From positions 1 to 54,275 of the forward strand of contig JAFUFL010000030.1 in the NCBI GenBank assembly GCA_017469935.1: DNA of 54,275 nt. Reading direction: 5' to 3'. This document shows positions 24,308 through 39,302 of the stretch, one piece after another (the first letter of the stretch is position 1; the number at the start of each line of letters is the position of its first letter). The stretch comes from Lachnospiraceae bacterium. GTDB lineage: Bacteria; Bacillota; Clostridia; Lachnospirales; Lachnospiraceae. The translations under genes were made by a program, and so were the position numbers. The notes under the pieces are model-generated. The model searched no databases. It was given only the letters and a program-made list of their open reading frames with translations, and was not told the DNA's origin.

Positions 24308-25308
<1,001 letters not shown>

Positions 25309-25396: not shown

Positions 25397-25570
25397 GATG
25401 ACCTCTGGGAAGGTTTTGGACCGCCTCTTGCCGCGACCTCTGGGGTGGCGTGACCTCTGGGGTGCTGTGACCTCTGGGGTGCTGTGACCTCTGGGATGGC
25501 GTGACCTCTGGGGTGCTGTGACCTCTGGGGTGCTGTGACCTCTGGGATGGCGTGACCTCTGGGGTATGGA
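25397..25570 (-). repeat. 17-bp repeat array, about nine units, with 51-bp superstructure
   Basis: Units of GACCTCTGGGGTGCTGT type in tandem. The variants run in the order GGGGTGGC, GGGGTGCT, GGGGTGCT, GGGATGGC, GGGGTGCT, GGGGTGCT, GGGATGGC, so the real repeating block is three units (51 bp). It lies between the divergent MoxR and zinc-ribbon genes. Confidence 0.95.
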
Positions 25571-25645
25571 GTAATTTGGGTATGGAGTAATTTTATGCTA
25601 TGCTATATTCATAATTGTTCGACAGACCACAAAAACCGGGAAGAA

Positions 25646-25764
25646 GCAAAACGCGGGGACGCAGGCATCCCATTGATGTTCTTAAAGGACTCGCTGTTTT
25701 GCTGATCATTATTTTTATGTCAAAAAAGAGACCGGGCTGCGTGTATTCCGATACACACTCGTGA
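25646..25764 (+). promoter_or_regulatory. Structured leader upstream of the zinc-ribbon gene
   Basis: AGCAAAACGCG (from 25645) pairs with CGCTGTTTTGCT (to 25703) with one bulge, enclosing a small hairpin, GGGA-CGCAGGCA-TCCC. A second structure follows: GTGTAT-TCCG-ATACAC inside an ACCGG(G)CT/AGCCGGT stem (25731-25776). A TATATT box near 25605 could start this RNA. It does not match a riboswitch class I can name. Confidence 0.45.
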
Positions 25765-25833
25765 GAAAAGCCGGTACAGGACCGGATCATCAGGCGGATG
25801 ATGGCAAAGTGACAAAACAGAGGGGAATTTGAT

Positions 25834-28098
25834 ATGTTTTGTGAAAACTGCGGATATAAGCTTGAAGAAGGGTTGAAATACTGCCCCAATTGCGGAGTTA
25901 AAATTGAATACGGGAGCAATTCGAATTACTCGGGACGCGACCGCGTGCGACCAGATAGCGGCGCAGAAGGGAGACGCGACCGCGTGCAGGGGCAGCGTGA
26001 CATTGGCCGGGGAGACGGCCGTGACAATGTACAGCCTTTTAACGGCAGGATCGGGGCGCCGGATGAGCCGCTCAAAAACACCAAGGGCCCAAAAGATCCC
26101 AGCGCTCCGCCGATTGCGAATATTGATTTAAGCGGAATCGTGGAGCTGTTTCGGAACAAGGTCTTTCGCATGGGAGCCCTGGCCGGGGCGTCGGCAGTCG
26201 TGACATTTGCCGCTATTTTGCTCGTGACGAACCATCTTGGGAAACAGCCGGTGACGCAAAGTGAAACAGTGGCAAATGAAGCTTCCGATACCTATGATGA
26301 GGAGTCTGTGCCGGCCAATGGAGAGCAGACCGGCCCGGAGGAAACCGATGGAGAGCAGACCAGCGCGGAGGGCACCGGCGCAGCGCAGAAAGAGCCGGCT
26401 GTCGGCGATGTTTTCCAAACCACAGGTTCGGAGGAGTTTGCAAAAGGATTGGACTTTTTGTATGGGGAAGAATATACGGTTCCGGTCAAGGCATCTTCCG
26501 GGGCTTTCAGTTTCGGAGAACAGGGTGTAGATTTATCTTCCGTTCCGGCAAAATATCTCGGCTATTACTGTAAGGATCTGGATCAGGACGGCGACGAGGA
26601 CCTGCTATTGTTTAAACTGACGAGCGACCATACGGTAGCTGCGCTGATGTGTTTATTTGACAGCGATACCTCAGAGCTCGTGGTGGCAGATTCGGCAGCC
26701 CTGAAGACGACGAATGACGCCATTGCAAATACAAGCCTGTCGAATATGAATGCATTCATTTATGAGAATGACGGCTCAACTTATATTGGCGCGCAGTTTC
26801 TTGACGAATCGCAGGGAAATGTAATGCTCAATGTGTCCGCAGAAGGATCTTTAAGCGGAACTTCTTTTGACTCCGAATGGAAAACGGATAACAGAGACAG
26901 CCGTACTGAGATCAGTATGGACAGCGTAGACGACATCAATCGAAATGCGGGGGCCTTCATCTTATCTCAAGATGAGGTGACGAGCATAAGGGAGCATAAA
27001 AAATACGTTATGGATTTCATTCCCGGAGCACGGGAGGTGTTCAGAATTGAGACGACGCCGTCCGGAAACGAGGCGGTTATGCGATTTTTTGACAGAGAAA
27101 GTCTGCGTGAAGACGGATCGGAACTGATCGCAGAGGGAAAGTACTACTATACGACAGGGGCGAATGAAAATGAGAAAGGCAGCTTGAGGTATGAAGCGGC
27201 GAAAATAGACGAGGATTTTATCTACAGCAATGAATTTTACGGCATCAAGGGAGAATCGGCAACGCTGACTTCCCAGCTGGAAATCGGGGCTTCAGATGAT
27301 GAAGAGGGAAAACTGTCTGTACATAACATATATGATGACAACGCGGTAAAAATAAGCTTTAGGTATTTTCTGTATAATGACACGGACTTTTATGTTGGGG
27401 CTAAAGATCATTATTTTATGGTGATAAGAAGAACCTATAATAATTCCCGAAAGGACAACGGGTTGTATTATCCTTCATCGACGCTGGGAGAAGATGCGGT
27501 TAATAATGAATTTTCGTTTGAGGAAACCATTTATGTTTTCGATATGGAAAAGGCAGGTACCGATGAAGAAGACAATGTGTTCAGCTTCAGCAGAAGCGTC
27601 GATCCAGCGGGAAAGGTTGAATGCTCTTACATAATGCTGGATGAGCACTTCAGGCTTGCTCAAAATGACGAGAACAGTTCCGGTTCGTCAGGATCAGGGA
27701 CATATTACTTCAGCGATGAGAAAGAAATGCTGGATGCGGCAATGGAGGAACTCGTAACGTTTTTTGGCGAGGATCAGATTCGCCTGCAGCCAATTTCCTG
27801 GGACAATAAGATGGAAGCTATGGAGTTTGCCTCTGATGATTGGATTGCTTCGTACAGGATGTTTTTGGATGAAGGGGCGCAGCAGGCGAAGGAGCCGGAG
27901 AATCAGGATGCATCATCTAAGAAGGAGCCGGAGAATCAGGATGCATCATCTAATACAGCGGATCAGGGAGAAGAAGGTCAGGGAGAAGAAGATCGGGAGG
28001 CATCACCTAATACAGCGGATCAGGGAGAAAATGTGGGAGACACCGGTGGAGTTACATCGGGGAATTTCAGGGTCAAGGCGGTGAAGATGGTTCGGTGA
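25834..28098 (+). CDS. Zinc-ribbon membrane protein with large extracellular region
   Basis: A 754-residue protein. Residues 1-24 are a zinc ribbon (MFCENCGYKLEEGLKYCPNC, two CxxC knuckles). A charged linker leads to a single membrane helix (GALAGASAVVTFAAILLVTNHL, about 111-132), then an acidic linker with repeats of EQTGPEETDGEQTSAEGT type. The long C-terminal region has an EF-hand-like DLDQDGDEDLLLF segment (about 247-259), otherwise no family I know. The tail repeats a KEPENQDASS unit and a GEEGQGEED unit, so it is low-complexity. Zinc-ribbon plus helix plus extracytoplasmic domain proteins are common in Clostridia and usually of unknown role. GAGGGG precedes the ATG. Confidence 0.8.
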   Translation: MFCENCGYKLEEGLKYCPNCGVKIEYGSNSNYSGRDRVRPDSGAEGRRDRVQGQRDIGRGDGRDNVQPFNGRIGAPDEPLKNTKGPKDPSAPPIANIDLSGIVELFRNKVFRMGALAGASAVVTFAAILLVTNHLGKQPVTQSETVANEASDTYDEESVPANGEQTGPEETDGEQTSAEGTGAAQKEPAVGDVFQTTGSEEFAKGLDFLYGEEYTVPVKASSGAFSFGEQGVDLSSVPAKYLGYYCKDLDQDGDEDLLLFKLTSDHTVAALMCLFDSDTSELVVADSAALKTTNDAIANTSLSNMNAFIYENDGSTYIGAQFLDESQGNVMLNVSAEGSLSGTSFDSEWKTDNRDSRTEISMDSVDDINRNAGAFILSQDEVTSIREHKKYVMDFIPGAREVFRIETTPSGNEAVMRFFDRESLREDGSELIAEGKYYYTTGANENEKGSLRYEAAKIDEDFIYSNEFYGIKGESATLTSQLEIGASDDEEGKLSVHNIYDDNAVKISFRYFLYNDTDFYVGAKDHYFMVIRRTYNNSRKDNGLYYPSSTLGEDAVNNEFSFEETIYVFDMEKAGTDEEDNVFSFSRSVDPAGKVECSYIMLDEHFRLAQNDENSSGSSGSGTYYFSDEKEMLDAAMEELVTFFGEDQIRLQPISWDNKMEAMEFASDDWIASYRMFLDEGAQQAKEPENQDASSKKEPENQDASSNTADQGEEGQGEEDREASPNTADQGENVGDTGGVTSGNFRVKAVKMVR

Positions 28099-28105
28099 GG
28101 GGGGA

Positions 28106-28294
28106 GGACCCCCAGAGGTCGCGGTACCCCAGAGGTCACGGTACCCCAGAGGTCGCGGTACCCCAGAGGTCGCGGTACCCTAGAGGTAATGGGACCCCAG
28201 AGGTCACGGTACCCTGGAGGTCACGGCACCCCAGAGGTATCGGGCCCCCGGAGGTCACGGTACCCCAGAGGTTGCGGGCCCCCGGAGGTCAGTG
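28106..28294 (+). repeat. 17-bp repeat array, about eleven units
   Basis: Starts 8 bp after the zinc-ribbon gene stop and ends shortly before the next gene. Units vary at CCAG/CTAG/CTGG/CCGG and at the four bases after GAGGT, so this is among the more diverged arrays. Confidence 0.95.
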
Positions 28295-28337
28295 AACGGC
28301 TGTGTTTGTCGAGTCAAAAAAGAGAAGGAGCAAAGTG

Positions 28338-29849
28338 GTGAACAGCTTTGAGAATTACAGTAAATCAATATTGAAACAAAAGAACATAGACAGAGCGTTG
28401 GAAGCATATCTGGAGATTTTACAGAAGGAGCATGCGGCCGGTGCAGGAGTCGTTCATAAGAGAGTCGCAGTCAGTAGAATTATCGCAACAATACTATACG
28501 CAATCTTATTGTTTTTGATAGTAAGCTTTTTCGTATTCTTCCATGAATTCCATTTTTTCTTTTGCGCTTCGGGCATAACAGCGCTTACTGCTGTTTGGAT
28601 ATACATAACCCGTACATTTTTTACTACAGAAAGAGCCCTGCGTCCAATAATACAGGCAAACCCTGATACAGACATCGATAGTATACTGGCCGGTGAAGAT
28701 GCTAATTACCGGAAGGCGAATACTGTTTGGGGAATCTGTGGAGCCATTATAGCAGTCACATTGGTTCTTACTGCAGTTGTGTACTGGTCGCCGCACATGA
28801 TCTTTCAAAAAAACAGCAATGGCTATAGTCTGCGAAATTATTCACTATCGCTTCATCCCACCCCGGAGGTCGAAATTCCGGATTATTGGAAAGGGGAGCC
28901 TGTCACAGAAATCAGAGGAGGCGCTTTTTATGGAATGAATTCCCTTAAGCAGGTCAAACTGCCTGGTGGGATCACGGAAATTCAAAAAAAGACTTTCGAA
29001 AAATGCAAGAATCTTGAAAATATAGATATTCCCGAAGGAACTACTGAGATAGGAAGTCGTGCCTTCTGCGACTGCCACAATCTGAGCAGTGTGACTGTGC
29101 CATCAACAATGGAATCGATCGGCAGCTCTGCGTTTCGAAGATGCTATAAACTGTCAGAGATCATCTTACCTTATGGCTGTGATGTAAGCAGTGATGCGTT
29201 TAAAGAGAGCGAGACAAAAATTTACTATAGTGACGGGGTTACAGTTACAACGGCAGAAAACACAGAAGAGACAGATGATTACGACTCTTATGATGATTCT
29301 TATGACGATTCTTATGATGATCAGAAAGAACCCGTTGAATATAAAGAATATGAGGCCAACACTGATGCGGGAGGAACGGAATCCGACAGCGAAATAATAT
29401 ATGTCAGGGATGAAGCGACCAACAAAAAGGTTGTAGAAATCAAAAAACCGGATTGGTGTGAAGGATATGATGATTATGTTGACAGTATCTGGCTTGACGG
29501 CCGTGATGGCTGGATGACTGTCAGGTATTCCTCGGATTATGCAAAATATGCCTTGGATTTTCTCGAAAGTGACCGGGACTATCTTTTAAACGATCCGGAA
29601 CTGCTGGATATGGAAAAGGTTTCGGAAATATATAAGAGCCAGGTTGGCGAGATGGAAGTATATTGGTTTGAAAGCAGGTACCGCTACAAATCAGGGAATG
29701 ATGATTACTGGATCCATTATTATGCGACAATTATTAACAAAGAGGGATATGTCGAAATAGAGGATTACAGAATTGGTGATGAAAAAACTATTGAACTTAC
29801 GGCGGACGATTTTTTGAACGATGTGTCACATATATCTTTCGTAGAGTGA
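28338..29849 (+). CDS. BspA-type leucine-rich-repeat membrane protein
   Basis: Start GTG 28338 with AAGGAG 7 nt upstream (the frame is open from 28302), giving about 503 residues. Two pairs of helices are at about 50-90 and 140-162, so the N-terminus is cytoplasmic or embedded. Residues about 175-305 are BspA-like leucine-rich repeats: GGAFYGMNSLKQVKLPGG, KTFEKCKNLENIDIPEG, RAFCDCHNLSSVTVPSTM, SAFRRCYKLSEIILPYG. An acidic YDDSYDDSYDD linker leads to a C-terminal domain of unknown fold. The codons for H-P-T-P-E-V near the start of the LRR region match the 17-bp repeat (nt 28859-28870). The stop TGA (29847-29849) is supplied by the first bases of the following array. Confidence 0.85.
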   Translation: MNSFENYSKSILKQKNIDRALEAYLEILQKEHAAGAGVVHKRVAVSRIIATILYAILLFLIVSFFVFFHEFHFFFCASGITALTAVWIYITRTFFTTERALRPIIQANPDTDIDSILAGEDANYRKANTVWGICGAIIAVTLVLTAVVYWSPHMIFQKNSNGYSLRNYSLSLHPTPEVEIPDYWKGEPVTEIRGGAFYGMNSLKQVKLPGGITEIQKKTFEKCKNLENIDIPEGTTEIGSRAFCDCHNLSSVTVPSTMESIGSSAFRRCYKLSEIILPYGCDVSSDAFKESETKIYYSDGVTVTTAENTEETDDYDSYDDSYDDSYDDQKEPVEYKEYEANTDAGGTESDSEIIYVRDEATNKKVVEIKKPDWCEGYDDYVDSIWLDGRDGWMTVRYSSDYAKYALDFLESDRDYLLNDPELLDMEKVSEIYKSQVGEMEVYWFESRYRYKSGNDDYWIHYYATIINKEGYVEIEDYRIGDEKTIELTADDFLNDVSHISFVE

Positions 29850-29925
29850 CCTCTGGGGTGCCGTGACCTCTGGGGTGCTGTGACCTCCGGGGTGCCGAGC
29901 ACGCGGGGTGCCGAGCACGAGAGCA
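29846..29925 (-). repeat. 17-bp repeat array, three units plus two degenerate
   Basis: Three GACCTCTGGGGTG-type units, then two worn copies (CACGCGGGGTGCCGAG) that keep the 17-bp spacing. Its first TGA ends the LRR gene. Confidence 0.93.
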
Positions 29926-29949
29926 AGACTGGAGAGGAGGAAACGATTT

Positions 29950-30246
29950 GTGGATAGACCTAAAACTTATAATGAATTTACAAGCTGGTATTATTCGCAG
30001 AAATTGACAGACTATTACGCGGTGGACCAGAATGCATTGCGTTCCATATTTTCGGAACTGCTTAATGGCGGTTGTGTGCAAGGGGATACAAGAGGCTTTT
30101 CTTTAATTGATTCCAAGGGCACTGTGGTCAGAAGATTCAACGTAAACTGCTCGCTCAAAGGCTTACAGATTTGTTTTATAAACAAAACTGGGATAGCAGT
30201 CAGGACAGATGCGGGACGGACCGTTGTCGGCCGACCTCTGGGGTAG
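29950..30246 (+). CDS. Small protein of unknown function ending inside a repeat array
   Basis: Start GTG 29950 with GGAGG (29936-29940) 9 nt upstream, 98 residues. The sequence begins with DRPKTYNEFTSWYYSQK and has a compact mixed composition (QNALRSIFSELLNGGCVQGD), with no membrane helix and no family I recognise. The last residues, G-R-P-L-G, and the TAG stop are encoded by the first unit of the next array (GACCTCTGGGGTAG), so the natural C-terminus may have been replaced when the array arrived. Confidence 0.65.
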   Translation: MDRPKTYNEFTSWYYSQKLTDYYAVDQNALRSIFSELLNGGCVQGDTRGFSLIDSKGTVVRRFNVNCSLKGLQICFINKTGIAVRTDAGRTVVGRPLG

Positions 30247-30365
30247 CGGACGACGGCAGTGTCGGCCGACCTCTGGGGTAGCAGACGACGGCAGTGTCGG
30301 CCGACCTCTGGGGTAGCGGACGGCGGCAGTGTCGGCCGACCTCTGGGGTAGCGGACGACGGCAGT
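30226..30365 (-). repeat. 35-bp tandem repeat built on the 17-bp core, four units
   Basis: Units start at 30226, 30261, 30296 and 30331. Each holds one GACCTCTGGGGTAGCGG core plus an extra segment with CGACGGCAGTGTCGGCC, so here the array grew as a longer compound unit. It covers the 3' end of the small gene at 29950. Bases 30366-30480 hold nothing I can name. Confidence 0.95.
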
Positions 30366-30480
30366 GCCGAGCAGTCTCCGGAGGCAGGCCAACAAGGAAG
30401 AATTGCCGGGAGCAGAACTTCAGGGCATGCAAAATATAGCCCCCCCAGCGATATTGAGGGCGCCATAAAGAGTTCCCGGA

Positions 30481-30690
30481 ATGAAAAAAATCAGGGACCG
30501 GGTATATTTTGCCTTGTCAGGGTTCAAGGGCACACCAACGGAAACAGCCTGCGTGATTGCGGAGAAATACGGACTGTTTTAGGGGAATATGACTTCACAA
30601 AAATGAAGCCATCGGCATGTATATGCGCAGTCTGCGGCAGTATGTACGGTCCGGCAGACGGCAGGGGTGCCCACGACAATGCGGTTATGA
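30481..30690 (+). pseudogene. Possible frameshifted gene remnant
   Basis: ATG 30481 opens a 33-residue frame (MKKIRDRVYFALSGFKGTPT, then ETACVIAEKYGLF) ending at 30582. After shifts, a second stretch in another frame (KNEAIGMYMRSLRQYVRSGR, nt about 30600-30660) reads like a continuation. No start signal is good. I take this as a decayed gene of unknown type next to the RAYT. Confidence 0.3.
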
Positions 30691-30730
30691 AAGGATTGTT
30701 ATTTGTAAGAATCCGATGCTCGGAGCACGG

Positions 30731-31510
30731 TCAGGCAATAACAGGCCCGCTCCGGCTCCCCACAGAAGCAGTAGCTTTTCTGATCACGCCATACGAGATT
30801 CCGGTAATCCTGCTGGTCTGTTTCATCGAGATTCCCGCCTCTCTTAATTTGCGCAGCATCTCATCTCTCACTTTGACGGCGAGAGCCTGAAATTCAGACA
30901 CGGTTCTGCATCCGGAGACCTTGTGCATGATCTTTGCGGCATTTTTGTCATTCATGCGCGGCTTTATGTCATCGATATCCAGACAGTGGTCATTGTTTTT
31001 CTGGCAGTTAAAGCTGAAAAAATCGTCGCAGCTGACAATAGATCTCACATAAGTATCATCAATCAGATCATTGTGAAAATAGTCTTTATAACTGCTGTAT
31101 TTGTACTGAGCAGGATGACTGCAGATCGCTGCTCTTACCGGATTCTGGTGGACGTAGCGGATGGCGATCAAAAGCTGGTTCTCACTTTCAATCGGCGTGC
31201 TGTCAAAGCGGGACTGAAAGAGACTGCCGACCCGCGCGTATTTTCTGTTGTACCAGGAAACGAAGCTGGGCGCGATGTACTGAAAGATTCGGCCAAGCGG
31301 CATTTTTCCTGTTTTAATGATCAGATGTATATGATTTGACATCAGGCAATAGCCGAGAACTTTGTAGTCGCATTTGGCCTGGAATCTTTGAAGAGTATCC
31401 AGGAAGCGCTGGGAATCTTCTTCATCTTCAAATATTCGCTGCTTGTTTATACCGCGATATACCACATGGTAAATACCAAAGGAACTGATTTTGCGAGGAA
31501 GTGTAGGCAT
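30731..31510 (-). CDS. RAYT (REP-associated tyrosine) Y1 transposase
   Basis: A single-strand HUH transposase of 259 residues. The HUH site is LMSNHIHLIIKTG (His60 and His62), and the catalytic Tyr is probably in SWYNRKYARVGSLFQSRF (about Tyr87). The opening SSFGIYHVVYRGINKQRIFED and IRYVHQNPVRAAIC are diagnostic for the RAYT/TnpA_REP group. A C-terminal helix-turn-helix (AGISMKQTSRITGISYGVIRKA, about 225-246) is an extra seen in some clostridial members. The frame extends to 31678, but ATG 31510 begins the conserved part and has AAGG 8 nt upstream. RAYTs are domesticated enzymes that move short palindromic REP repeats rather than themselves. It lies between arrays 30226-30365 and 31780-31881, in the densest repeat zone. 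Confidence 0.93.
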   Translation of the reverse strand: MPTLPRKISSFGIYHVVYRGINKQRIFEDEEDSQRFLDTLQRFQAKCDYKVLGYCLMSNHIHLIIKTGKMPLGRIFQYIAPSFVSWYNRKYARVGSLFQSRFDSTPIESENQLLIAIRYVHQNPVRAAICSHPAQYKYSSYKDYFHNDLIDDTYVRSIVSCDDFFSFNCQKNNDHCLDIDDIKPRMNDKNAAKIMHKVSGCRTVSEFQALAVKVRDEMLRKLREAGISMKQTSRITGISYGVIRKATASVGSRSGPVIA

Positions 31511-31618
31511 AGATGTGACCTTTTTAACCTTTCTTTTTAGAAATGAATGACTGATTGTACAGCTTCGTGTGATCTTATGATCAAAGGATCGCTGTGGTTT
31601 AAAAGAGGTTCGGAGTTT

Positions 31619-31634
31619 TGCGGAGAAATCCGCA
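31619..31634. other. Hairpin with GNRA loop upstream of the RAYT gene
   Basis: TGCGGA-GAAA-TCCGCA, 108 bp upstream of the RAYT start. RAYT genes are often flanked by REP-like hairpins; this one is short. Apart from this, the region 31511-31779 shows no gene I can support. Confidence 0.5.
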
Positions 31635-31770: not shown

Positions 31771-31785
31771 GTATCCGATGGGTAC
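31771..31785. promoter_or_regulatory. Near-copy of the XRE operator
   Basis: GTATCCGATGGGTAC differs at one base from GTATCCGATGGATAC at 38457-38471. It overlaps the first unit of the array before the PQQ gene, so it may be chance. Confidence 0.25.
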
Positions 31786-31881
31786 CTCGGAGGTGGAGGT
31801 ACCCCAGAGGTGGAGGTACCCCAGAGGTCACGGTACCCCGGAGGTGGCGGTACCCCAGAGGTCACGGCACCCCAGAGGTCG
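31780..31881 (+). repeat. 17-bp repeat array, six units
   Basis: GGTACCCCAGAGGTGGA-type units, the first three ending GGTGGA or GGTGGC instead of GGTCGC. No stop codon interrupts the frame running from the array into the PQQ gene. Confidence 0.95.
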
Positions 31882-31912: not shown

Positions 31913-32923
31913 ATGAAGAAAAAGTGGGAGTATAAGTATCCTGAACGGCTGGTCGAAGCAATGGTCTCAGAAGACTATGTGCTGTCAGGCGAAGAGCTAT
32001 ATTTTGTCCATATGACGAACGGGCGATACCCGAGGGCCGGCATATACTGCGTGAATGCAGATACAGGAGAAGCGAAGGCCGTGTTCGAGACGACGGACTT
32101 CCTCAGAGTTATAGGAGCCACTGACGGGAATTGCTTCTACTTCACATCGCTCAGAGGTATCGCGTACTGCGTCACGAAAGAGGGCGAGCTGGTCTGGAAA
32201 AAGCAGCTCGGCGAAAAAGCAGGCGCGGCAGACTTCAACGTTGTGCTGGAGGGAGACCGGCTGTATATGGCGCAGGACGCACTCTATTGCCTGGACCCGA
32301 AGACCGGCGAGACGATCTGGGCGAACGACGAGAGAGGGTACGGCTCCAACTGCACAATTCTTGTGGAAGGCGACTATATTTACCATGCCAAAAGCGGGAA
32401 GCACCTCTACTGTGCGAGCAAATCCACAGGGGAGACCGTCTGGACTTACGGAGAGGAAGAGTGGTGCAGAAGTGTGATCGCAGTGGATGCCGATACTTTG
32501 TGCTATCAATGCACGCACGGGAAGTACTTATTCCTGGACAAGAAGGATGGCCATCTGGTCAAAGAAGTGAAAGCGGGCGGAAAACTGATGAGGCAGCCCA
32601 TACTGGTTGACGGGGCCATTATTGTCGGCGAGAACACACAACTATCCGGCGGGCGGGTGGTCCGCTACGAAGTGGAAAGAAATTATGGACTGAAGGCGGC
32701 TTTTGAAGTAGCCGTACCCGCAGCCGTGACCTCTGGGGTGGTGCTCAGTGGGGATAGACTGTATTTTGGCACAGAAGACGGCTCAGTTTATTGTGTGGAC
32801 AGCAGTACTGGCGAGGAAATCGAGAAAAAGAAAAAAGTGAAAGGTGCCTGCCGGGGAATCGTTCCCTATGGAGAGGGGATCATTGCGCTGTCCGATAAGG
32901 GGCCGGCGGCTGCGTTCGTATAG
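31913..32923 (+). CDS. PQQ-like beta-propeller repeat protein
   Basis: A 336-residue propeller. Successive blades are visible: YCVNADTGEAKAVF, YCVTKEGELVWKKQ, YCLDPKTGETIWAND, YCASKSTGETVWTYGEE, FLDKKDGHLVKEVKA and YCVDSSTGEEIEKKK, the D-x-x-T/D-G-x-x-x-W pattern of PQQ repeats. No signal peptide or membrane helix is seen, so it is cytoplasmic, unlike BamB or quinoprotein dehydrogenases. Such proteins serve as binding scaffolds; the ligand is unknown. AAGGAGG (31900-31906) is 6 nt before ATG 31913; the frame upstream is only repeat. Nt 32726-32743 encode V-T-S-G-V-V with a 15-nt exact match to the 17-bp repeat, inside a normal blade. Confidence 0.85.
   Translation: MKKKWEYKYPERLVEAMVSEDYVLSGEELYFVHMTNGRYPRAGIYCVNADTGEAKAVFETTDFLRVIGATDGNCFYFTSLRGIAYCVTKEGELVWKKQLGEKAGAADFNVVLEGDRLYMAQDALYCLDPKTGETIWANDERGYGSNCTILVEGDYIYHAKSGKHLYCASKSTGETVWTYGEEEWCRSVIAVDADTLCYQCTHGKYLFLDKKDGHLVKEVKAGGKLMRQPILVDGAIIVGENTQLSGGRVVRYEVERNYGLKAAFEVAVPAAVTSGVVLSGDRLYFGTEDGSVYCVDSSTGEEIEKKKKVKGACRGIVPYGEGIIALSDKGPAAAFV
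32726..32743 (-). repeat. Single 17-bp repeat unit inside the PQQ gene
   Basis: GTGACCTCTGGGGTGGTG lies in the coding region and is read in frame as V-T-S-G-V-V, which suits the propeller blade. Confidence 0.7.
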
Positions 32924-32944
32924 GACAGGTCGAGGCGGTGGGTC

Positions 32945-33058
32945 GCGGTACCCCGGAGGTCGCGGTACCCCAGAGGTCACGGCACCCCAGAGGTCGCGGT
33001 ACCCCAGAGGTCGTGGCACGAGGTCGTGGCACGAAGGGTGCCGCGACCTCTGGGGTCG
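32945..33058. repeat. 17-bp repeat array, four forward units, one degenerate and one inverted
   Basis: Four CCCCAGAGGTC units, a shortened GAGGTCGTGGCAC copy, then one unit on the opposite strand (GCGACCTCTGGGGTCGG). The array fills the gap between the PQQ and HD genes. Confidence 0.95.
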
Positions 33059-33080: not shown

Positions 33081-33668
33081 ATGGGAAATCACATCACAAC
33101 TTACACGGGAAAGCATTTTGAACCGACAAATCCGGATCCGGAGACAATCCTTATTGAGGATATTGCACATGCACTTTCCTTGATCTGCAGGGGAAATGGC
33201 CATATAAAAACTTTCTGGTCTGTCGGGCAGCATTGCATAAGCTGCGCAAACGAAGCGTGGGCAAAGGGACTTTCAAAACGTATGGCGCTGGCTTGTCTCC
33301 TTCATGATGCCAGCGAGTGCTATATGTCCGATATTCCGAGGCCGTTCAAGATGGAACTGCCGGAGTATAAAGCACGGGAAGAGCGCCTGTTGGACATGAT
33401 TTTTAATAAGTTTCTGGGATCATCTCTCACTCCTGCAGAGCAGCTGCAAATGAAAGAGATTGATGATGCGATGCTTTGGTACGATCTGAAAGAGCTGCTG
33501 GATGAGACGCCGTTAGGAGAACCCCCGGAGCTGCATAGCGATCTGGATTACTCGGTGCGCCCATTTCAGGATGTGGAAAAGGAATATCTGGAACTCTACT
33601 ATCAATTTTCCGAGACAAGCCACACCCCCCAAAGCCACATCACCCCAGAGGTCTCTGGCTCCGCCTAA
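33081..33668 (+). CDS. HD-domain phosphohydrolase (YfbR-like)
   Basis: A 195-residue HD-superfamily hydrolase. The metal ligands appear as SVGQHCISCAN (about 49), LACLLHDASECYMSDIPRPFK (HD near 72-73) and EIDDAMLWYDLKEL (Asp near 129). This layout resembles YfbR-type 5'-nucleotidases and phage-associated HD proteins. GAGG is 7 nt before ATG 33081; the frame is open upstream to 32844, but that part is only repeat translation. The C-terminus S-H-T-P-Q-S-H-I-T-P-E-V-S-G-S-A is encoded by the 17-bp array at 33633, so the native end has been extended or replaced. Confidence 0.82.
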   Translation: MGNHITTYTGKHFEPTNPDPETILIEDIAHALSLICRGNGHIKTFWSVGQHCISCANEAWAKGLSKRMALACLLHDASECYMSDIPRPFKMELPEYKAREERLLDMIFNKFLGSSLTPAEQLQMKEIDDAMLWYDLKELLDETPLGEPPELHSDLDYSVRPFQDVEKEYLELYYQFSETSHTPQSHITPEVSGSA

Positions 33669-33733
33669 GCCAAAGCCACATCACCCCAGAGGTCTCTGGC
33701 TCCGCCTGAAGCAACTCCACCCCAGAGGTCCTT
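33633..33733 (+). repeat. Repeat array, three units within a 41-bp compound repeat
   Basis: Three CACCCCAGAGGTC cores. Between the first two, a 35-bp segment starting AAAGCCACATCACCCCAGAG (33631 and 33672) is repeated at 41-bp spacing. The first unit codes for the end of the HD protein. Confidence 0.9.
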
Positions 33734-33807
33734 GGTCCTGCCTGCGAGCAGTACCCCTGAGCTCGCGGGTGCAGGTCAAAATATCGACAATTCCAAACGG
33801 AGTCAAA

Positions 33808-34329
33808 ATGAGAATTACACAAGCAAATCCCGGCGACTTTGAAATGGTCAGATCTTTTTACCATTCATTGATCGACGGTATGAAAGAGCGAAAACAGACA
33901 ATTACATGGACTAAAGACATATATCCAGCACCGGAATTTCTGAGGTCGTCGCTGGACAAAGGAGAACTGTATATATGCTGCGACGGCCCGAGTACAGCTG
34001 CTGCTATGGTCGTAAATCATGACTGCAATGAAGGATATCACAAGATAGGAAAGCAGACGCCGCTGACAGACGCAGAGGTGCTGGTAATCCATGCACTCGG
34101 CGTTCATCCTGATTTCAGCGGCAGAGGAATAGGCAAAATGATGGTGGAAAAAGCCATAGATATTGCAAAAAGAGCAGGAGTAAAAGGCTTGCGACTGGAT
34201 GTCCTGAAGGGCAACGATACAGCGAGCAGGCTCTACGTGCGGTGCGGATTCGAGTACGTCGGCTCGGTGCAGATGTATTACGAGAATACGGGCAACGCGG
34301 AGTTTGGCATATACGAGTATGTCATTTAA
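33808..34329 (+). CDS. GNAT N-acetyltransferase
   Basis: A 173-residue acetyltransferase. The start at ATG 33808 follows CGGAG by 6 nt; the longer frame from 33571 runs through the repeat array. RITQANPGDFEMVRSFYHSLIDGM is the N-terminal strand-helix. ALGVHPDFSGRGIGKMMVEKAIDIAKRAGVKGLRLDVLKGNDTASRLYVRCGFEYVG (about 90-145) is a complete GNAT motif A/B with the R-G-I-G-K acetyl-CoA loop. The closing EYVGSVQMYYENTG is common in clostridial members of unknown substrate. It is a single gene between arrays. Confidence 0.88.
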   Translation: MRITQANPGDFEMVRSFYHSLIDGMKERKQTITWTKDIYPAPEFLRSSLDKGELYICCDGPSTAAAMVVNHDCNEGYHKIGKQTPLTDAEVLVIHALGVHPDFSGRGIGKMMVEKAIDIAKRAGVKGLRLDVLKGNDTASRLYVRCGFEYVGSVQMYYENTGNAEFGIYEYVI

Positions 34330-34341
34330 TTGAGAGCCCAG

Positions 34342-34423
34342 GAGCCCAGTACCCCAGAGGTCGTATGAAAATTGAGAGCCCAGTACCCCAGAGAGCCCAG
34401 TACCCCAGAGGTCGTATGGAGGT
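34342..34423 (+). repeat. 17-bp repeat array, three interrupted units
   Basis: Three CAGTACCCCAGAG copies separated by GAGAGCCCAGTAC, with a truncated middle unit. The last unit plus a duplicated GGAGGTCGT (34418-34426) leads directly into the MATE start codon. Confidence 0.9.
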
Positions 34424-34426
34424 CGT

Positions 34427-35824
34427 ATGAAGATTGACAAAATACTAACGCAGAAAAATGTGACCAAGGCCGAGAAAGTCCGCCTTGTTCTCAGCATGAG
34501 CCTTCCGGCAGTCCTGGCACAGCTGACATCGATCGCAATGCAGTATATTGACGCCGGAATGGTAGGAAGCCTCGGTGCTGAGGCAACAGCCTCAATAGGG
34601 CTGGTTTCTTCCACGACGTGGCTGATTGGCGGGAGCTGTATCGGCATTTCGGCCGGGTTTTATGTACAGATTGCACAGCTCATCGGCGCCGGACGCGACC
34701 GCGAAGCAGAGGACGTCCTCCGACAAGGCCTGAAAGCCGCGGCATTAATCGGGATTCTAATAAGCACAGTGTGCATGCTGATCAGCGACAGTGTGCCGAA
34801 GTGGCTTGGCGGAGGGGAGGCAATCCTTGGGAATGCCACGGCATATTTCCGAATCTATACCCTGGGGGTTCCGTTTATGCTCCTTCGCCAGCTTTCGAAC
34901 GGGACGATGCAGAGTACAGGGGACATGAAGACGCCGAGCATTTTGTCTGCAGTCGTATGCTTACTGGATGTTGCGCTGAACATGCTGATGATCTTCCCGA
35001 CAAGAACGCTGTCCGTCCTCGGAATGCAAGTGGTGATCCCCGGCGCCGGACTTAAGGTGGCCGGCGCGGCGCTTGCTACCACCACCTCAGAGGTCATTAT
35101 TTCGCTTGTGTCTCTGTTTTTGCTTGCTGCCGGGAACAAGAGAATCTCGTTGGCAAAAAATGGAAGCTGGAAATGGCGCGGCCGAACTCTGGCTATTGCG
35201 GCCAAAATAGGGATCCCGCTATCTTTTGACCAGATTTTCATGTGCAGTGCCTACGTGGCAGGAACCAAGATTGTCGCAGGATTGGGCACAGTGGCGATCG
35301 CGGCCAATTCGCTGGCGATCACGGCGGAAAGCTTGTGTTACATGCCGGGATATGGAATCGGCGCGGCGGCGACGGCAATCATCGGGCAGACGATCGGGGC
35401 GGGCCGATTTGACCTGACCAAAAGCTTCTCGCGTGTGTCAGTTTATCTGGCAATGGTCATGATGGGACTGACGGGTGCGATCATGTATATTTGTGCGCCG
35501 ATCGTGTTCTCGCTGTTGACAAGCAGCGCGGAAGTGGCGGCACTGGGCACGCAGGTGCTGCGCCTCGAACTGGTCGCGGAGCCGCTGTACGGCGCATCGA
35601 TCGGCTGCGCGGGCGTCTTTCGGGGAGCGGGAGACACGCTTCGGCCGAGCATAATGAATCTGGTAAGTATGTGGTGCGTGCGCATCGTATTGGCGCTGCT
35701 GTTGGTCCCGCGCCTGGGTCTGCGGGGATACTGGACAGCAATGGCGCTGGAGCTGTGTTTCCGCGGGCTGATCTTCCTTATCAGGTTGTACCGAGGGGCA
35801 TGGATGAAAGCGGCGGTGGTGTAG
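34427..35824 (+). CDS. MATE-family efflux transporter
   Basis: A 465-residue, twelve-helix multidrug/toxin exporter, probably sodium- or proton-coupled. MSLPAVLAQLTSIAMQYIDAGMVGSLGAEATASIGLVSS (about 25-63) is the MATE N-terminal bundle, and IGIPLSFDQIFMCSAYVAGTKIVAGLGTVAIAANSLAIT (about 263-301) opens the second bundle. GVFRGAGDTLRPSIMNLVSMWCVRI near 400 is typical. The ribosome site GGAGGT (34418-34423) is built from the last repeat unit, 3-4 nt from the ATG, a short spacing. Codons T-S-E-V (nt 35085-35096) also match a repeat variant. A long array follows the stop. Confidence 0.92.
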   Translation: MKIDKILTQKNVTKAEKVRLVLSMSLPAVLAQLTSIAMQYIDAGMVGSLGAEATASIGLVSSTTWLIGGSCIGISAGFYVQIAQLIGAGRDREAEDVLRQGLKAAALIGILISTVCMLISDSVPKWLGGGEAILGNATAYFRIYTLGVPFMLLRQLSNGTMQSTGDMKTPSILSAVVCLLDVALNMLMIFPTRTLSVLGMQVVIPGAGLKVAGAALATTTSEVIISLVSLFLLAAGNKRISLAKNGSWKWRGRTLAIAAKIGIPLSFDQIFMCSAYVAGTKIVAGLGTVAIAANSLAITAESLCYMPGYGIGAAATAIIGQTIGAGRFDLTKSFSRVSVYLAMVMMGLTGAIMYICAPIVFSLLTSSAEVAALGTQVLRLELVAEPLYGASIGCAGVFRGAGDTLRPSIMNLVSMWCVRIVLALLLVPRLGLRGYWTAMALELCFRGLIFLIRLYRGAWMKAAVV

Positions 35825-35944
35825 GCCGACCTCTGGGTGTAGGCCGACCTCTGGGGTGCCGCGACCTCTGGGGTACCGTGACCTCTGGGGTGCCGCGACC
35901 TCTGGGGTATCGTGACCTCTGGGGTATCGTGACCTCTGGGGTAG
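35823..35944 (-). repeat. 17-bp repeat array, seven units
   Basis: GACCTCTGGGGT units with GCCGC, ACCGT, GCCGC, ATCGT and ATCGT after the core. It starts at the stop codon of the MATE gene. Confidence 0.95.
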
Positions 35945-35965
35945 TTTGAGCATGAGGGACAGAAA

Positions 35966-36658
35966 ATGGGCAAAAAAGTGAAGCTGCAGAAAATCAGCAA
36001 ACATGTGTGGATTTTTCCGTTTGACTCGCCAAAAGATCGGCCGAATCTCGGCTATATATACGGCACTAAGATGGCACTGGCGGTGGATGCGGGTCATTCC
36101 TCCAAACATGTAGAAGAGTTTTACGATGCTATTTTGGCAGAAGGGCTCTCTCTTCCGGAGATTACAGTGATCACTCATTGGCATTGGGATCACACCTATG
36201 GAATGCACGCGGTAAGCGGGAAGACAATGGCCAGACCGGAGACGAATACAAAGCTCGCTCAAATACGCCAGGATATGAGCAGAGATCCGGACAAAGTGCG
36301 TGAATTTCTGAACAGCGATCCTTCGATTCAAAGAGAATATGCCGGCGGCGTACCGGTAGTAGTCGTACCGGCGGAAGAAACTATTATGGAAGACCACTCG
36401 ATCGATCTCGGTGGAGTGACAGCAGAGCTCATGCTGTCAGAATCACCGCATACGGACGATGCGCTGCTTGTGTATGTACCGGAAGATCGGGTCTTGTTTG
36501 TTGGAGATGCCCAGCTCGGCGAATTTCCTTCCTGGAAGATGAACTGGAAAAAGCTGGCATCTTTTGCAAAGAAAGTGCAGGGAATCGATGCGGACGTGAT
36601 CATTGATGGGCACTGGAAGCCGTATACGAAGGAAGAGTTCATGGCAGATATCATGTAA
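35966..36658 (+). CDS. Metallo-beta-lactamase-fold hydrolase
   Basis: A 230-residue MBL-fold enzyme. The zinc site is TVITHWHWDHTYGMHAV (about 67-83; H-x-H-x-D-H). LFVGDAQLGEFPSW (about 173) supplies the bridging Asp, and DVIIDGHWKPYTKEEF near 209 the last His. The opening KLQKISKHVWIFPFDSPKDRPNLGYIYGTKMALAVDAGHS matches the small soluble hydrolase branch rather than a secreted beta-lactamase, and there is no signal peptide. The substrate is unknown; thioesters or phosphodiesters are typical. GAGGG lies 8 nt before the ATG, downstream of the array. Confidence 0.9.
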   Translation: MGKKVKLQKISKHVWIFPFDSPKDRPNLGYIYGTKMALAVDAGHSSKHVEEFYDAILAEGLSLPEITVITHWHWDHTYGMHAVSGKTMARPETNTKLAQIRQDMSRDPDKVREFLNSDPSIQREYAGGVPVVVVPAEETIMEDHSIDLGGVTAELMLSESPHTDDALLVYVPEDRVLFVGDAQLGEFPSWKMNWKKLASFAKKVQGIDADVIIDGHWKPYTKEEFMADIM

Positions 36659-36670
36659 GCGCGTGAGCGC

Positions 36671-36858
36671 GCCACCCCAGAGGTCGCGCGGAGGTCGTGG
36701 AACCTCAGAGGTCGTGGAACCCCAGAGGTCGCACGGGGGCGCAGCAGGTAGGCGCGGTACCCCAGAGGTCGTATGTACCCCAGAGATCGTATGTAGGCAC
36801 GCTACCCCAGAGGTTGTATGAAGACTTGCGTAATGCTTGCCAGCGACCTCTGGGGTAG
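36671..36858. repeat. 17-bp repeat array, about seven units, mixed quality, last inverted
   Basis: Forward units are CACCCCAGAGGTC, AACCTCAGAGGTC, AACCCCAGAGGTC and four more, several followed by GTATG. The final unit at 36843-36858 is inverted. Confidence 0.92.
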
Positions 36859-36915
36859 TTTGTGTGGGGTAGTTTGTGCGGGCAAAATATAGAAGAAAAG
36901 AACAGGAGACACAGA

Positions 36916-37785
36916 GTGACTATCAGAATTGCATTTTTGCAAATTCTGCCCGGGAAAAATCTTGAAGAGAATCTTGCTTTGGGGATGAATGCATGCAGAG
37001 AGGCAAAAGAAAAAGGGGCGGATCTGGCTCTTTTTCCGGAAATGTGGAGCGACGGTTATTACCTTCCGCAGCATGATAATGTGATAAATAGTCTTGCGGT
37101 CAGAGAGGATAGTGAATTCATTAAGAAGTTTGCTGACCTTGCGGCTGATCTGCAGATGGCGATCGGTATTACCTTTCTGGAAGCACATGAACCAAAGCCG
37201 CGCAATTCCATAATTGTTTTCGACAGGAGGGGGCAGGAAATCCTTCATTATTCGAAGGTACATACCTGCGCGTTTGACCTTGAAAAGATCTTAGACAGTG
37301 GTGAGGGCTATAATGCCGCTGAGCTGGATTTTGGCAGAGGTACGGTAACGGTTGGGGCGATGATTTGTTTTGACAGAGAATTTCCCGAAAGTGCAAGGAT
37401 ACTGATGCTTAAGGGAGCTGAACTGATCCTGGTTCCGAATGCCTGCCCGATGGAGATTAACAGATTGTCCGCACTGAGAACGAGGGCTTATGAGAATATG
37501 GTCGCGGTGGCGACATGTAATTATCCGCAAGGACATCCGGATTGCAATGGAAAATCAACGCTGTTTGACGGTGTTCCATGGAATGTGAGCGGCGTAAGGG
37601 ATATGTGCGTTTTCGAAGCACCGGAAGCCTGTGGAATATATGTCGCTGACCTTGATCTGGACAGCCTCAGGAACCACAGAAGTAATGACATAATGGGGGA
37701 TAAATATAGACACCCTGATAAATATGGGATTTTGGCAGATGAAAGTGTCTGCGGCGTCATTGGCGGGGAATTTGTACATTGGTGA
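36916..37785 (+). CDS. Nitrilase-superfamily carbon-nitrogen hydrolase
   Basis: A 289-residue amidase/nitrilase-fold enzyme. The catalytic triad is readable: Glu42 in LALFPEMWSDG, Lys114 in LHYSKVHTC and Cys151 in VGAMICFDREFPESARIL. Length and motifs fit the aliphatic amidase/omega-amidase-like branch that removes ammonia from small amides. The start is GTG 36916, with AGGAG (7 nt) upstream; the frame continues to 36862 without a ribosome site. Residue Cys151 sits in the C-F-D-R-E-F-P elbow typical of the family. It is a single gene between two arrays. Confidence 0.92.
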   Translation: MTIRIAFLQILPGKNLEENLALGMNACREAKEKGADLALFPEMWSDGYYLPQHDNVINSLAVREDSEFIKKFADLAADLQMAIGITFLEAHEPKPRNSIIVFDRRGQEILHYSKVHTCAFDLEKILDSGEGYNAAELDFGRGTVTVGAMICFDREFPESARILMLKGAELILVPNACPMEINRLSALRTRAYENMVAVATCNYPQGHPDCNGKSTLFDGVPWNVSGVRDMCVFEAPEACGIYVADLDLDSLRNHRSNDIMGDKYRHPDKYGILADESVCGVIGGEFVHW

Positions 37786-37791
37786 CTGTCC

Positions 37792-37966
37792 ACTACCCCA
37801 GAGGTCGTGGAATCCCGGCCGCTCCCGGCCGCTCGCTACCCCAGAGGTCACATGGAGCCATGTCGGGCTGCTCGCTACCCCAGAGGTCGCAGGACCCCAG
37901 AGGTCATGTGGCCTGGGGTATCGTGACCTCTGGGGTAGGGGGCTCTCTCGTGACCTCTGGGGGTAG
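37792..37966. repeat. 17-bp repeat array, four forward and two inverted units
   Basis: Forward TACCCCAGAGGTC copies are separated by irregular spacers (one duplicated CTCCCGGCCG). Two inverted units close it, so this array points both ways, as at 32945 and 36671. Confidence 0.92.
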
Positions 37967-37975
37967 GTCTCTCCG

Positions 37976-38000
37976 AAAAAAAGCCGCCCTTTCGGGCGGC
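37976..38000 (-). terminator. Terminator of the XRE regulator gene
   Basis: On the minus strand GCCGCCC-GAAA-GGGCGGC is followed by TTTTTTT (38000 down to 37976), 51 nt after the XRE stop. Confidence 0.92.
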
Positions 38001-38051
38001 ACATTTCAAGCAGCAATATGATGAGATAAGAATAGGAAATGGCCTTGAGTT

Positions 38052-38399
38052 TCAGGGCTGTTTTTTTATTTTTCGATAATAGGCCAAAAGCCTGTCTCTT
38101 GCACTGCTGTTCTGATCCGCGATATCTACCAGAATGTCAAAGAGTTCCGGATCAGAATCTCTGGAAATCAGCAGTTCTTTGGGAGAAGGGTCATCAGTGA
38201 GTCCGGCAAGGTACTCCGGAGAGGTCCTGAGCTTCTGGGCGATGAAAACGAGGGTCTGATAAGATGGCGTTCGGACTGCCGTTTCATAGCGAAGGTACCC
38301 CATTTTTGAAAGCCCCAGAAGTCGGGAGGCTTCGGCTTTATTAAGCCCGCGCGCCTCGCGGATTTTAATTAAGCGGTCAGGTAATAGCGTCATGTCCAT
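38052..38399 (-). CDS. XRE-family helix-turn-helix repressor
   Basis: A 115-residue regulator. RLIKIREARGLNKAEASRLLGLSKMGYLRYETAVRTPSYQTLVFIAQKL (about 9-57) is a classical HTH_3 domain. AAGGAGG is 5 nt before ATG 38399; the frame extends to 38432 but without a ribosome site. Two operators of the type GTATCCNATGGATAC lie in the divergent intergenic region (38425-38471), overlapping the promoters of this gene and the 149-residue gene. Autoregulation and repression of its partner are therefore likely. Small pairs of this layout include toxin-antitoxin and phage-type switches, but no toxin signature is seen. Confidence 0.88.
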   Translation of the reverse strand: MDMTLLPDRLIKIREARGLNKAEASRLLGLSKMGYLRYETAVRTPSYQTLVFIAQKLRTSPEYLAGLTDDPSPKELLISRDSDPELFDILVDIADQNSSARDRLLAYYRKIKKQP

Positions 38400-38417
38400 A
38401 GTAACCTCCTTAAAGGG

Positions 38418-38500
38418 TTGACAAGTATCCAATGGAGACTATAATTGATGTCAAGAGTATCCGATGGATACATTATAGTAGTATAAGTTGTTTTTATCAA
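38418..38500. promoter_or_regulatory. Divergent promoters with two XRE operators
   Basis: The plus promoter is TTGACA (38418-38423), 16 nt, TATAAT (38440-38445). The minus promoter is TTGATA (38500-38495), 17 nt, TATAAT (38477-38472). Operator 1 (GTATCCAATGGAGAC, 38425-38439) exactly fills the plus spacer. Operator 2 (GTATCCGATGGATAC, 38457-38471) abuts the minus -10. Centres are 32 bp apart, three helical turns. Confidence 0.85.
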
Positions 38501-38520
38501 GCGAAAAGGAGGTAATTAAT

Positions 38521-38970
38521 ATGGGATGTTGGGGTATGGCAAAAGATAGAATCGAGGTTAAGCCGGGGGTAAATGACGCTCTGATCAAGGAATTTATTGA
38601 GTTCAGCATAATCAGCTGTCCGGAGGAGTATTGTAGGGAAAAGTTTGCTAATCCCTGGTTTTTTGATTCGGAGAACAAGCTGGTATGTCATGCCGGGAAA
38701 TTTGCTGAAGATGAGGTTTGGTACAGGCACCTGAAAAATTATCTTTTCGAGCCCCGGGGATATGAGGTCCCGGACGAGATCTCATTTACTGGGGACTGTG
38801 ATATAGGGTTCTGGGATCTTGCCAAGATCAGAGCGGAGGAATATGAAGAATGGAAGAAGAGAACGGTAAAGATTGTAGAGAGCTTAAACGGCTATGATAC
38901 TCTGTTCAGCTATACAAGAATGGATGGCGGATCTGCTCCTCTTCCAAGAGGTTTTTACGCACAATACTGA
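38521..38970 (+). CDS. XRE-controlled protein of unknown function
   Basis: A 149-residue soluble, acidic protein. AGGAGG is 8 nt before ATG 38521; the longer frame at 38488 has no ribosome site. Segments to note are GCWGMAKDRIEVKPGVND, CHAGKFAEDEVWYRHLKNYLFE and SFTGDCDIGFWDLAKIRAEEYEEW. No membrane helix, signal peptide or known motif is seen. It contains five Cys and nine Trp, an unusual aromatic content. The gene faces the XRE repressor across a shared two-operator region and ends with its own strong terminator, so it is the main target of that repressor. A toxin or stress-induced role is possible but unproven. Confidence 0.75.
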   Translation: MGCWGMAKDRIEVKPGVNDALIKEFIEFSIISCPEEYCREKFANPWFFDSENKLVCHAGKFAEDEVWYRHLKNYLFEPRGYEVPDEISFTGDCDIGFWDLAKIRAEEYEEWKKRTVKIVESLNGYDTLFSYTRMDGGSAPLPRGFYAQY

Positions 38971-39000
38971 GTAAGGAGATAGAACACCCCCTTTATTAGA

Positions 39001-39041
39001 AAGAGGACGGCACTGATATTGAGGTGCTGTCCTCTTTTTTT
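39001..39041 (+). terminator. Terminator after the XRE-controlled gene
   Basis: GAGGACGGCAC pairs with GTGCTGTCCTC (one wobble), then TTTTTTT. Confidence 0.92.
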
Positions 39042-39058
39042 GTGCTACGACTTCTCAC

Positions 39059-39302
39059 TACCCCAGACTTCTCACTACCCCAGAGGTCGCAAGGAGGTCG
39101 CAAGGAGCCACGCTGCCGTGGGCTGCCCACCACCCCAGGGGTCCCGCGACCTCTGGGGTCCCGTGACCTCGCAAGGAGCCACGCTGCCGTGGGCTGCCCA
39201 CCACCCCAGAGGTCGCAGTACCCCAGAGGCACCGCGACCTCTGGGGTACCGCAACCTCTGGGGTACCGCAACCTCTGGGGTACCGCAACCTCCGGGGTAC
39301 CG
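39059..39302. repeat. Mixed repeat array, about ten 17-bp cores in both directions plus a 41-bp direct repeat
   Basis: Forward CCCCAGAGGTC and inverted GACCTCTGGGG cores alternate. A 41-bp segment starting TCGCAAGGAGCCACGCTGCC occurs at 39098-39138 and 39169-39209. Four inverted units with ACCGC or ACCGCA close the array. It fills the gap between the XRE pair terminator and the YhfC-like gene. Confidence 0.93.

Follow-up and report, generated by a model that had tools for sequence, protein, structure and literature searches.

Genes and repeats of the island

The window analysed here is a whole contig of 54,275 bp (C42; JAFUFL010000030.1) from a Lachnospiraceae bacterium with a 3.55 Mb genome in 111 contigs (GCA_017469935.1), labelled G000; other G numbers denote relatives in the genus. 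Between 25.3 and 39.4 kb the window carries an island in which single genes are separated by short repeat arrays, and these are probably repetitive extragenic palindromic (REP) elements belonging to a REP-associated tyrosine transposase (RAYT) that is encoded among them. The island begins next to a MoxR gene (24304-25308) and runs through genes for a zinc-ribbon protein, an LRR protein, a small open reading frame (ORF), the RAYT (30731..31510, minus strand), PQQ, HD, GNAT, MATE and MBL proteins, a nitrilase and an XRE-type regulator paired with an unknown gene, ending at YhfC.

Arrays read on the plus strand lie between MoxR and the zinc-ribbon gene (25401..25565, with 17-bp units and then a 16-bp duplication at 25562-25593), between the LRR gene and the small ORF (29848..29919, with a 16-bp flank duplication) and between MATE and MBL (35827..35944), and four core-carrying 35-bp repeats cover the end of the small ORF (30225..30366, plus). 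Those on the minus strand separate the zinc-ribbon and LRR genes (28107..28291), RAYT and PQQ (31781..31880), the 3' end of HD and GNAT (33629..33730, 41-bp repeats with the core), and GNAT and MATE (34344..34429, with 17-bp and 11-bp flank duplications). No single strand is assigned to the arrays at PQQ/HD (32941..33057), MBL/nitrilase (36674..36882), nitrilase/XRE pair (37793..37964) and XRE pair/YhfC (39049..39303), nor to the single unit at 37911..39191 formed by the XRE-type regulator (38052-38432) and the unknown gene (38521-38970).

The repeats share a 12-bp core, GACCTCTGGGGT, with 48 copies between 25.3 and 39.4 kb. Matches to the degenerate 11-mer class ACCYCWGRGGT number 73 in the window, whereas 100 dinucleotide shuffles average 0.06 and never exceed 1; the whole genome has 149. 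The original prediction, made from the window alone, had described a 17-bp intergenic repeat delimiting every transcription unit between 25397 and 39302, and had proposed a genome-wide count, run here with the 11-mer. Tandem Repeats Finder placed 17-bp arrays at most of the boundaries named there. Since the gene caller missed or shortened weak genes (neither the small ORF nor the XRE gene was called, and HD and the start of the LRR gene were truncated), the boundaries were also read by hand; the core was found at 12 of the 13 from MoxR to YhfC, and the one without it was the XRE/unknown-gene pair, just as predicted. The 17-bp period is indeed dominant in the window, with 11-18-bp flank duplications beside the 17-bp units, but periods of 35 bp (30225-30366), 41 bp (33629-33730), 16, 14, 13 and 11 bp also occur. 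Likewise the repeats mark nearly every boundary but do not keep to them, with cores inside the PQQ frame (32728..32739, plus strand, shared with G007), at the ends of the small ORF (30234) and HD (33642), and, as a variant, inside the MATE frame (35084). Nor are the arrays confined to the predicted range, since an array at 10502..10760, two REP units at 16739..16767 and another array at 51335..51457, all on the minus strand, lie beyond it.

With genes as called, cores occupy 11/11 intergenic gaps of at least 60 bp in the window's island and 3/25 in the rest of the window, the island bounds having been chosen after the core density was seen. Counted in the same way, the islands of relatives are filled in 8/8 gaps (outside, 5/35) on contig C12 of G007, 25/29 (outside, 2/28) on G048:C32, 26/28 (outside, 0/2) on G045:C13 and 20/27 (outside, 0/12) on G058:C3, and in 13/16 and 9/13 gaps in the islands of G050:C65 and G048:C61.

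The RAYT and its probable repeat family

The 259-residue RAYT is a Y1 HUH transposase (Pfam PF01797, Y1_Tnp; 47.9 bits, cut-off 23). His60 and His62 of the HUH motif, and Tyr119, Asn123 and Pro124 of the Y---NP motif, are invariant in 12 sequences, and a profile search retrieves the E. coli TnpA-REP 4er8 at 6.6e-5. Against membership, its sole NCBIfam match, NF047646 (REP_Tyr_transpos), scores 69.3 bits, under the cut-off of 80. About 110 residues extend past the core domain, with a weak HTH_7 match (E 0.14). The best-scoring named RAYTs, at 43-49% identity, come from metagenome-assembled genomes of Oscillospiraceae, Clostridia, Acetobacterium and Lachnospiraceae.

Exact 11-bp cores are dense around the RAYT of the window, with 54 in the nearest 8.5 kb. 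Across 62 genomes of the genus, a close RAYT (a full-length relative with at least 46% identity) is present in 12, although one copy in G052 and one in G061 have internal stops. All 12 of these genomes contain GACCTCTGGGGT, at 12-235 sites each, and 44 of the 50 genomes without a close RAYT have no core at all (Fisher 9e-9, a figure weakened by the relatedness of the genomes, which are not independent trials). The same pairing is seen locally. When 25 RAYT loci were compared, up to 10 kb on either side, 16 of 17 with RAYTs of at least 55% identity had five or more exact cores and none of the eight with more distant RAYTs did, and every one of the 25 had a local repeated 11-mer in at least four copies. 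Around the 60-63% identical RAYTs of G000:C61 and G007:C24, variants of the ACCCTAGAGGT type dominate, with no exact core within 10 kb in the former and five in the latter. The literature describes such a match between a RAYT and one particular REP family (PMC6006769).

More distant RAYTs of the genus, in G052:C18 (L132), G061:C23 (L134), G004:C91 (L137) and G014:C175 (L140), each sit amid a different repeat, for example AGGGTAACCCT, GATCACAGCCC, GAACCGTCCCC and AGGGGACAGAG. Of 80 named RAYT loci from other genomes, 61 span at least 8 kb. A local 12-mer repeated at dispersed sites, in up to nine places each, is found in 28 of the 61 and in 1/11 control stretches; in 16 of the 28 the repeat includes CCGTCCC or its complement. 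Repeats of the AGAACCGTCCCC type recur round RAYTs across Bacilli and Clostridia (L147, L154, L189, L207, L214 and others), and partly resemble, without matching, the motif GGGGWSAS reported from TIRYT flanks (PMC3733652).

In some relatives the form of the repeats also resembles that of REPs. Many cores in G045, G048, G050 and G058 terminate 50-bp palindromes such as GACCTCTGGGGTAGTTTGTCCACAGGTGTGGACAAACTACCCCAGAGGTC, built from GACCTCTG, a GTAG or GTGG tag and a variable hairpin arm, the whole occurring twice, head to head. The tag follows 153/190 cores in G048, 142/176 in G045, 115/155 in G058 and 116/145 in G050 (74-81%). Among 52 distinct palindromes (125 copies, their outer 12 bases being set by the search), arm positions 13-24 are complementary in 36-52 elements and the central pair 25-26 in only two; pairs 20-31 and 21-30 are complementary in 44 and 46 of the 52, with both C-G and G-C represented. 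A GT[AG]G tag with a palindrome is a known REP feature (PMC6006769, PMC8266576, PMC3116915, PMC3733652). The mostly tagless arrays of the window would then be a derived form of the tagged palindrome. In these arrays 15 of 25 end units and 3 of 39 inner units carry the tag, a pattern that array growth by copying of the core without the hairpin would produce.

Gene order and turnover at the repeats

Window and G007:C12 are syntenic on both flanks of the island, and PQQ, HD, GNAT, MATE, MBL and nitrilase keep the same order in both. Shared boundaries carry repeats in each genome, in differing numbers: six exact cores in the window at MATE/MBL and two exact plus two one-mismatch cores in G007; two and five cores, respectively, at GNAT/MATE; and at HD/GNAT three exact cores in the window and two one-mismatch cores in G007. 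The XRE unit is present in the window and absent from G007, its ends lying 12 and 17 bp from cores. Likewise, three units of 1,460, 578 and 805 bp with repeats at both ends are present in one and absent from the other of G048 and G045. In genomes lacking a unit the joint falls within a repeat, and at one site the unit-lacking G045 and G050 retain differing flanking elements, which suggests separate events. A hydrolase-like gene has moved, adjoining MBL in G051 and lying nine genes before MBL in G048, flanked by cores in both; the order on G051:C140 is GNAT, a deformylase-like gene, MATE, MBL and the hydrolase-like gene, the deformylase and hydrolase labels being ones that we presume from sequence motifs. 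Clean repeat-to-repeat units account for 4 of 14 alignment gaps. A further gap, G048 10799-15019 against G050, is called a chaining artefact because MATE and MBL are present in both genomes; two, at 17.6-18.6 kb of the window, have no core nearby, and in the rest either just one end has a core or the distances to the cores are unequal.

Most gene order is nevertheless stable. Counting ordered pairs in both directions, which are not independent, order is kept at core gaps in 215 of 252 comparisons among four relatives and broken in 37, while the remaining gaps show 13 breaks in 185 comparisons (odds ratio 2.3, p 0.015); this comparison is confounded, since most core gaps belong to islands and most of the remaining gaps to the backbone. 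Between G000 and G007 order is kept in 35 of 36 core-gap comparisons, and there is no excess of breaks (1/36 compared with 2/65 at other gaps). Turnover at the repeats is thus real and unit-like, but modest, and gain and loss are indistinguishable.

The most serious alternative to recombination at the repeats is that REPs have passively filled tolerant intergenic DNA near the RAYT, in a hotspot for accessory genes that has other causes. This account is compatible with the REP/RAYT identification and competes with the gene-turnover step only, and we give it slightly less than an even chance. REPs are mostly intergenic in known cases (PMC6006769, PMC3733652), and the stability of gene order suits this account. 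Moreover, a core is no more than 25 bp away from 31-47% of intergenic bases in four islands; indels would often end close to one in any case, and nearness alone is weak evidence. Genes of the island type also occur side by side in G041 and G042, where exact cores are lacking; in G041 two of them are less than 20 bp apart with no core between. Set against these points are the joints within repeats, the differing elements left in G045 and G050, and the distribution of MATE and MBL, which share a contig in 7 of the 62 genomes, all repeat-bearing, many contigs being short; MATE homologues of at least 75% identity are found on eight contigs free of exact cores, some of 4-5 kb, and none has an adjacent MBL.

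MoxR adjoins the repeat island both in the window and on G058:C3 (42256-43257). By tblastn, the G058 island (about 35 kb) contains none of the window's island genes, the HD homologue lying outside it, and its end adjoins a different set of genes, suggesting that the island was a site of rearrangement. At about 25600-25800 the window has, by eye, short gene remnants, after which come the zinc-ribbon, LRR and small genes; G007:C12 has at about 47,962-48,960 a longer, open version of the same gene, presumably acyltransferase-like, as if the remnants had been left by internal deletions. Several island genes (25.8-39 kb) have lower length-adjusted codon-usage scores than backbone genes, judged without a formal test, as if acquired or weakly expressed. 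Adjoining the island, at 41469-47852, a CoA-transferase, a BadF-type activase, two 2-hydroxyacyl-CoA dehydratase subunits and an AMP-binding ligase stand in a row, with 98-100% protein identity in G007.

Break points of tandem duplications

Tandem duplications of 8-60 bp were collected from the contigs of the window's genome and its relatives, leaving out L041 (part of the window) and L125. Removal of 8 same-sequence repeats, 16 with both ends in a core and 67 with neither from the 236 found left 145 with exactly one end in a core. Tandem duplications are concentrated near cores: DNA up to 60 bp from a core holds 2.47 per kb, about nine times the 0.28 per kb of the remaining intergenic DNA. 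Of the 145, 111 are 13-20 bp long, with a mode of 17. On the CCCC side of the core, the break ACCCCA^GAGGTC, equivalent to GACCTC|TGGGGT, fits 21 of 35 duplications (6.6 expected; 0/1000 simulations), and after merging of similar units, which reduces 145 duplications to 77, it still fits 16 of 28 (5.1 expected; 0/1000 simulations). On the opposite side, after the same merging, the break ACCC^CAGAGGTC fits 17 of 49 (8.6 expected, p 0.001). The junctions on the CCCC side appear often to point to the C|T step that is cut by known RAYTs: those of E. coli and Stenotrophomonas cut C|T, and that of Marinomonas also C|A (PMC8266576).

Plain polymerase slippage or unequal crossing-over, with no nuclease needed, could also have made the 17-bp arrays, since any tandem repeat, once formed, can expand in this way, and the junctions overlap by at least 1 bp in 85 of the 145 duplications. 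However, the other 60 have no overlap. The lengths of core duplications peak at 15-18 bp, with only 4 of 145 above 20 bp, while those elsewhere are mostly of 8-11 bp (38/62), and certain break positions recur more often than in simulations preserving local sequence. We consider slippage unlikely as the sole origin, at perhaps a quarter of the weight.

A proposed model for the islands

We think it likely, taking the explanation as a whole, that the REPs of the resident RAYT spread locally, that the arrays grew by nicking and that units recombined at them. The association of RAYT and core is observed; local spreading of the REPs by the enzyme we infer. As an HUH single-strand nuclease, the RAYT would have spread its REPs until nearly every surrounding gene boundary was occupied. 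It would nick GACCTC|TGGGGT, the free 3' end would be extended by some 13-20 nt, and rejoining of the displaced, enzyme-linked 5' end would give a tandem duplication with its inner end fixed at the cut and its outer end variable. Because neighbouring boundaries carry the same sequence, recombination between them could then remove, insert or move single genes, by a mechanism and in a direction that we can only propose; the outcome itself is seen in a few cases. Repeats settling between existing genes explains more of the data than repeats gathering genes.

Several observations weigh against this explanation. Cores are present in 6 of the 50 genomes without a close RAYT (1, 1, 5, 7, 17 and 19 copies), and the 60 kb of G058:C3 used in the comparison include a dense island but no RAYT. 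The tag follows a minority of cores in G000 (24/95), G007 (24/52), G038 (8/30) and G052 (6/26), and none in G061 (0/12) or G049 (0/7). Duplications on the GAGG side chiefly fit the ACCC^CAGAGGTC break (46/110; 19.9 expected; 0/1000 simulations), with positions 1 (27, 15.1 expected) and 6 (28, 17.9 expected) also raised, as is position 4 on the CCCC side (11, 6.3 expected). Stricter merging, to 54 duplications, blurs the CCCC side, where 8 of 17 fall at C|T and 9 of 17 two bases away, and divides the GAGG-side peak evenly between positions 4 and 1, with 12 of 37 each. Recombination or slippage after an array has formed can alter its copy number as well. We judge the stricter merging over-strict because it joins events that share the palindrome's own flank; with it, the window alone has 8 of 12 events at the C|T position. 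One nick at C|T does not account for the second favoured break, two bases off, which may reflect a cut on the opposite strand.

The original prediction had read the arrays as joints at which single genes are gathered or swapped, in an integron-like region without an integrase and with the RAYT as one more cargo gene, and had proposed alignment with relatives. That alignment gave a divided answer, with the 4 of 14 clean units and the relocated gene agreeing with joints and the 215 of 252 conserved orders speaking against general shuffling. Also in favour of joints, eight MoxR contigs without exact cores gave none of the other island genes except an LRR homologue in G042. The RAYT is probably the repeats' own enzyme rather than cargo. 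No integrase was found among 40 window proteins scanned with Pfam, a search that took in no further genes of the window and no other part of the genome. The integron analogy is partly supported, half right in that it fits some outcomes, and not a demonstrated mechanism.

A cassette region proper, in which recombination at the repeats actively takes up and reorders single genes, is improbable. Units bounded by repeats at both ends, the moved gene and the somewhat commoner breaks at core gaps are what it would produce, but these breaks come from non-independent and confounded comparisons, the pair G000 and G007 shows no excess, cores also lie inside genes, and no integrase was seen in the scanned set. 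A related idea gives the RAYT itself the part of the engine, nicking REPs at boundaries, building arrays, and releasing and inserting single-gene units through single-stranded or replicative intermediates. If it were true, species bearing RAYTs would gain, lose and move genes one by one; we hold this, too, to be a long shot. There is a similarly small chance that the arrays are regulatory iterons, binding a protein (perhaps the C-terminal part of the RAYT) or acting in RNA as terminators or stabilisers, since there is almost one array per transcription unit and the relatives' palindromes should form strong hairpins, but array orientation relative to the genes is mixed, arrays lie between divergent genes (MoxR/zinc ribbon, RAYT/PQQ), copy number varies at orthologous boundaries of G000 and G007, and the window has no Rfam match.

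Comparison with known systems

Other identities were rejected. CRISPR-like arrays do not fit, since periods vary from 11 to 71 bp and unique spacers of a uniform length are missing (judged partly by eye); a known RNA is out, Rfam giving 0 matches in the window at gathering thresholds; and a contig artefact is out, as the island lies within a 278-kb contig in G007, where its flanks and the parts in common align at about 79-96%. In a literature search for GACCTCTGGGGT, ACCCCAGAGGTC and CCTCTGGGGTAGTTTG the matches listed were two unrelated human-genetics papers, and nothing relevant was among the matches listed for 17-bp intergenic repeats in Lachnospiraceae or for RAYTs with short tandem repeats.

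Integrons and superintegrons share with the islands the runs of unrelated single genes split by repeats and the clean presence or absence of one unit, but here gene order is mostly conserved and the repeats occur in both orientations and in part inside genes. Compared by eye, the core lacks the GTTRRRY box that we take to be typical of attC sites.

The length of the RAYT and its C-terminal extension are common to the TIRYTs, or HuH subclass 2.1, which includes nearly all of RAYT group 1 (PMC6006769), and suggest membership on the protein sequence; the Y---NP motif is common to all of class 2 and not special to this subclass. A C-terminal HTH or DnaA-like domain marks the subclass, and the extension here offers no more than the HTH_7 match at E 0.14. 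The survey found no REP-like sequences near subclass 2.1 genes (PMC6006769), whereas here there are tagged palindromes and up to 235 cores per genome, so this RAYT, if it belongs to the subclass, would be an exception to that finding. The block-concentrated REP family of the "T." system (PMC3733652) shares the clustering in blocks; the gene turnover and duplication junctions seen here are not mentioned for it in the accessible portion of that paper.

REP dissemination has been called poorly understood (PMC8266576), and a second mechanism has been suggested for REP tandem clusters (PMC3116915). How REPs multiply and form tandem clusters is unsettled, and the large natural set of duplications here records a break point, often the step cut in vitro by known RAYTs, that yields a simple, testable model of array growth. 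The islands also make it possible to examine whether REPs influence the set of accessory genes that a chromosome retains.

The closest likeness is to the REPtron of E. coli, Pseudomonas and Stenotrophomonas, in which a RAYT (TnpA-REP) is combined with REPs or REPINs. Common to both are an HUH Y1 nuclease gene amid copies of its own repeat, in some relatives of the window a GT[AG]G tag with a palindrome, hairpin-forming doublets, a separate repeat family for each RAYT and tandem clusters beside RAYTs (PMC6006769, PMC8266576, PMC3116915, PMC3733652). The protein here is longer, at 259 residues compared with 165 in the solved E. coli protein, and here local islands fill nearly every gap and the window's lineage has mainly tagless 17-bp arrays. 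We therefore rate the system as a variant of REP/RAYT and not as an integron, unusual in its saturated local islands, its tagless 17-bp arrays and its break-point signature.

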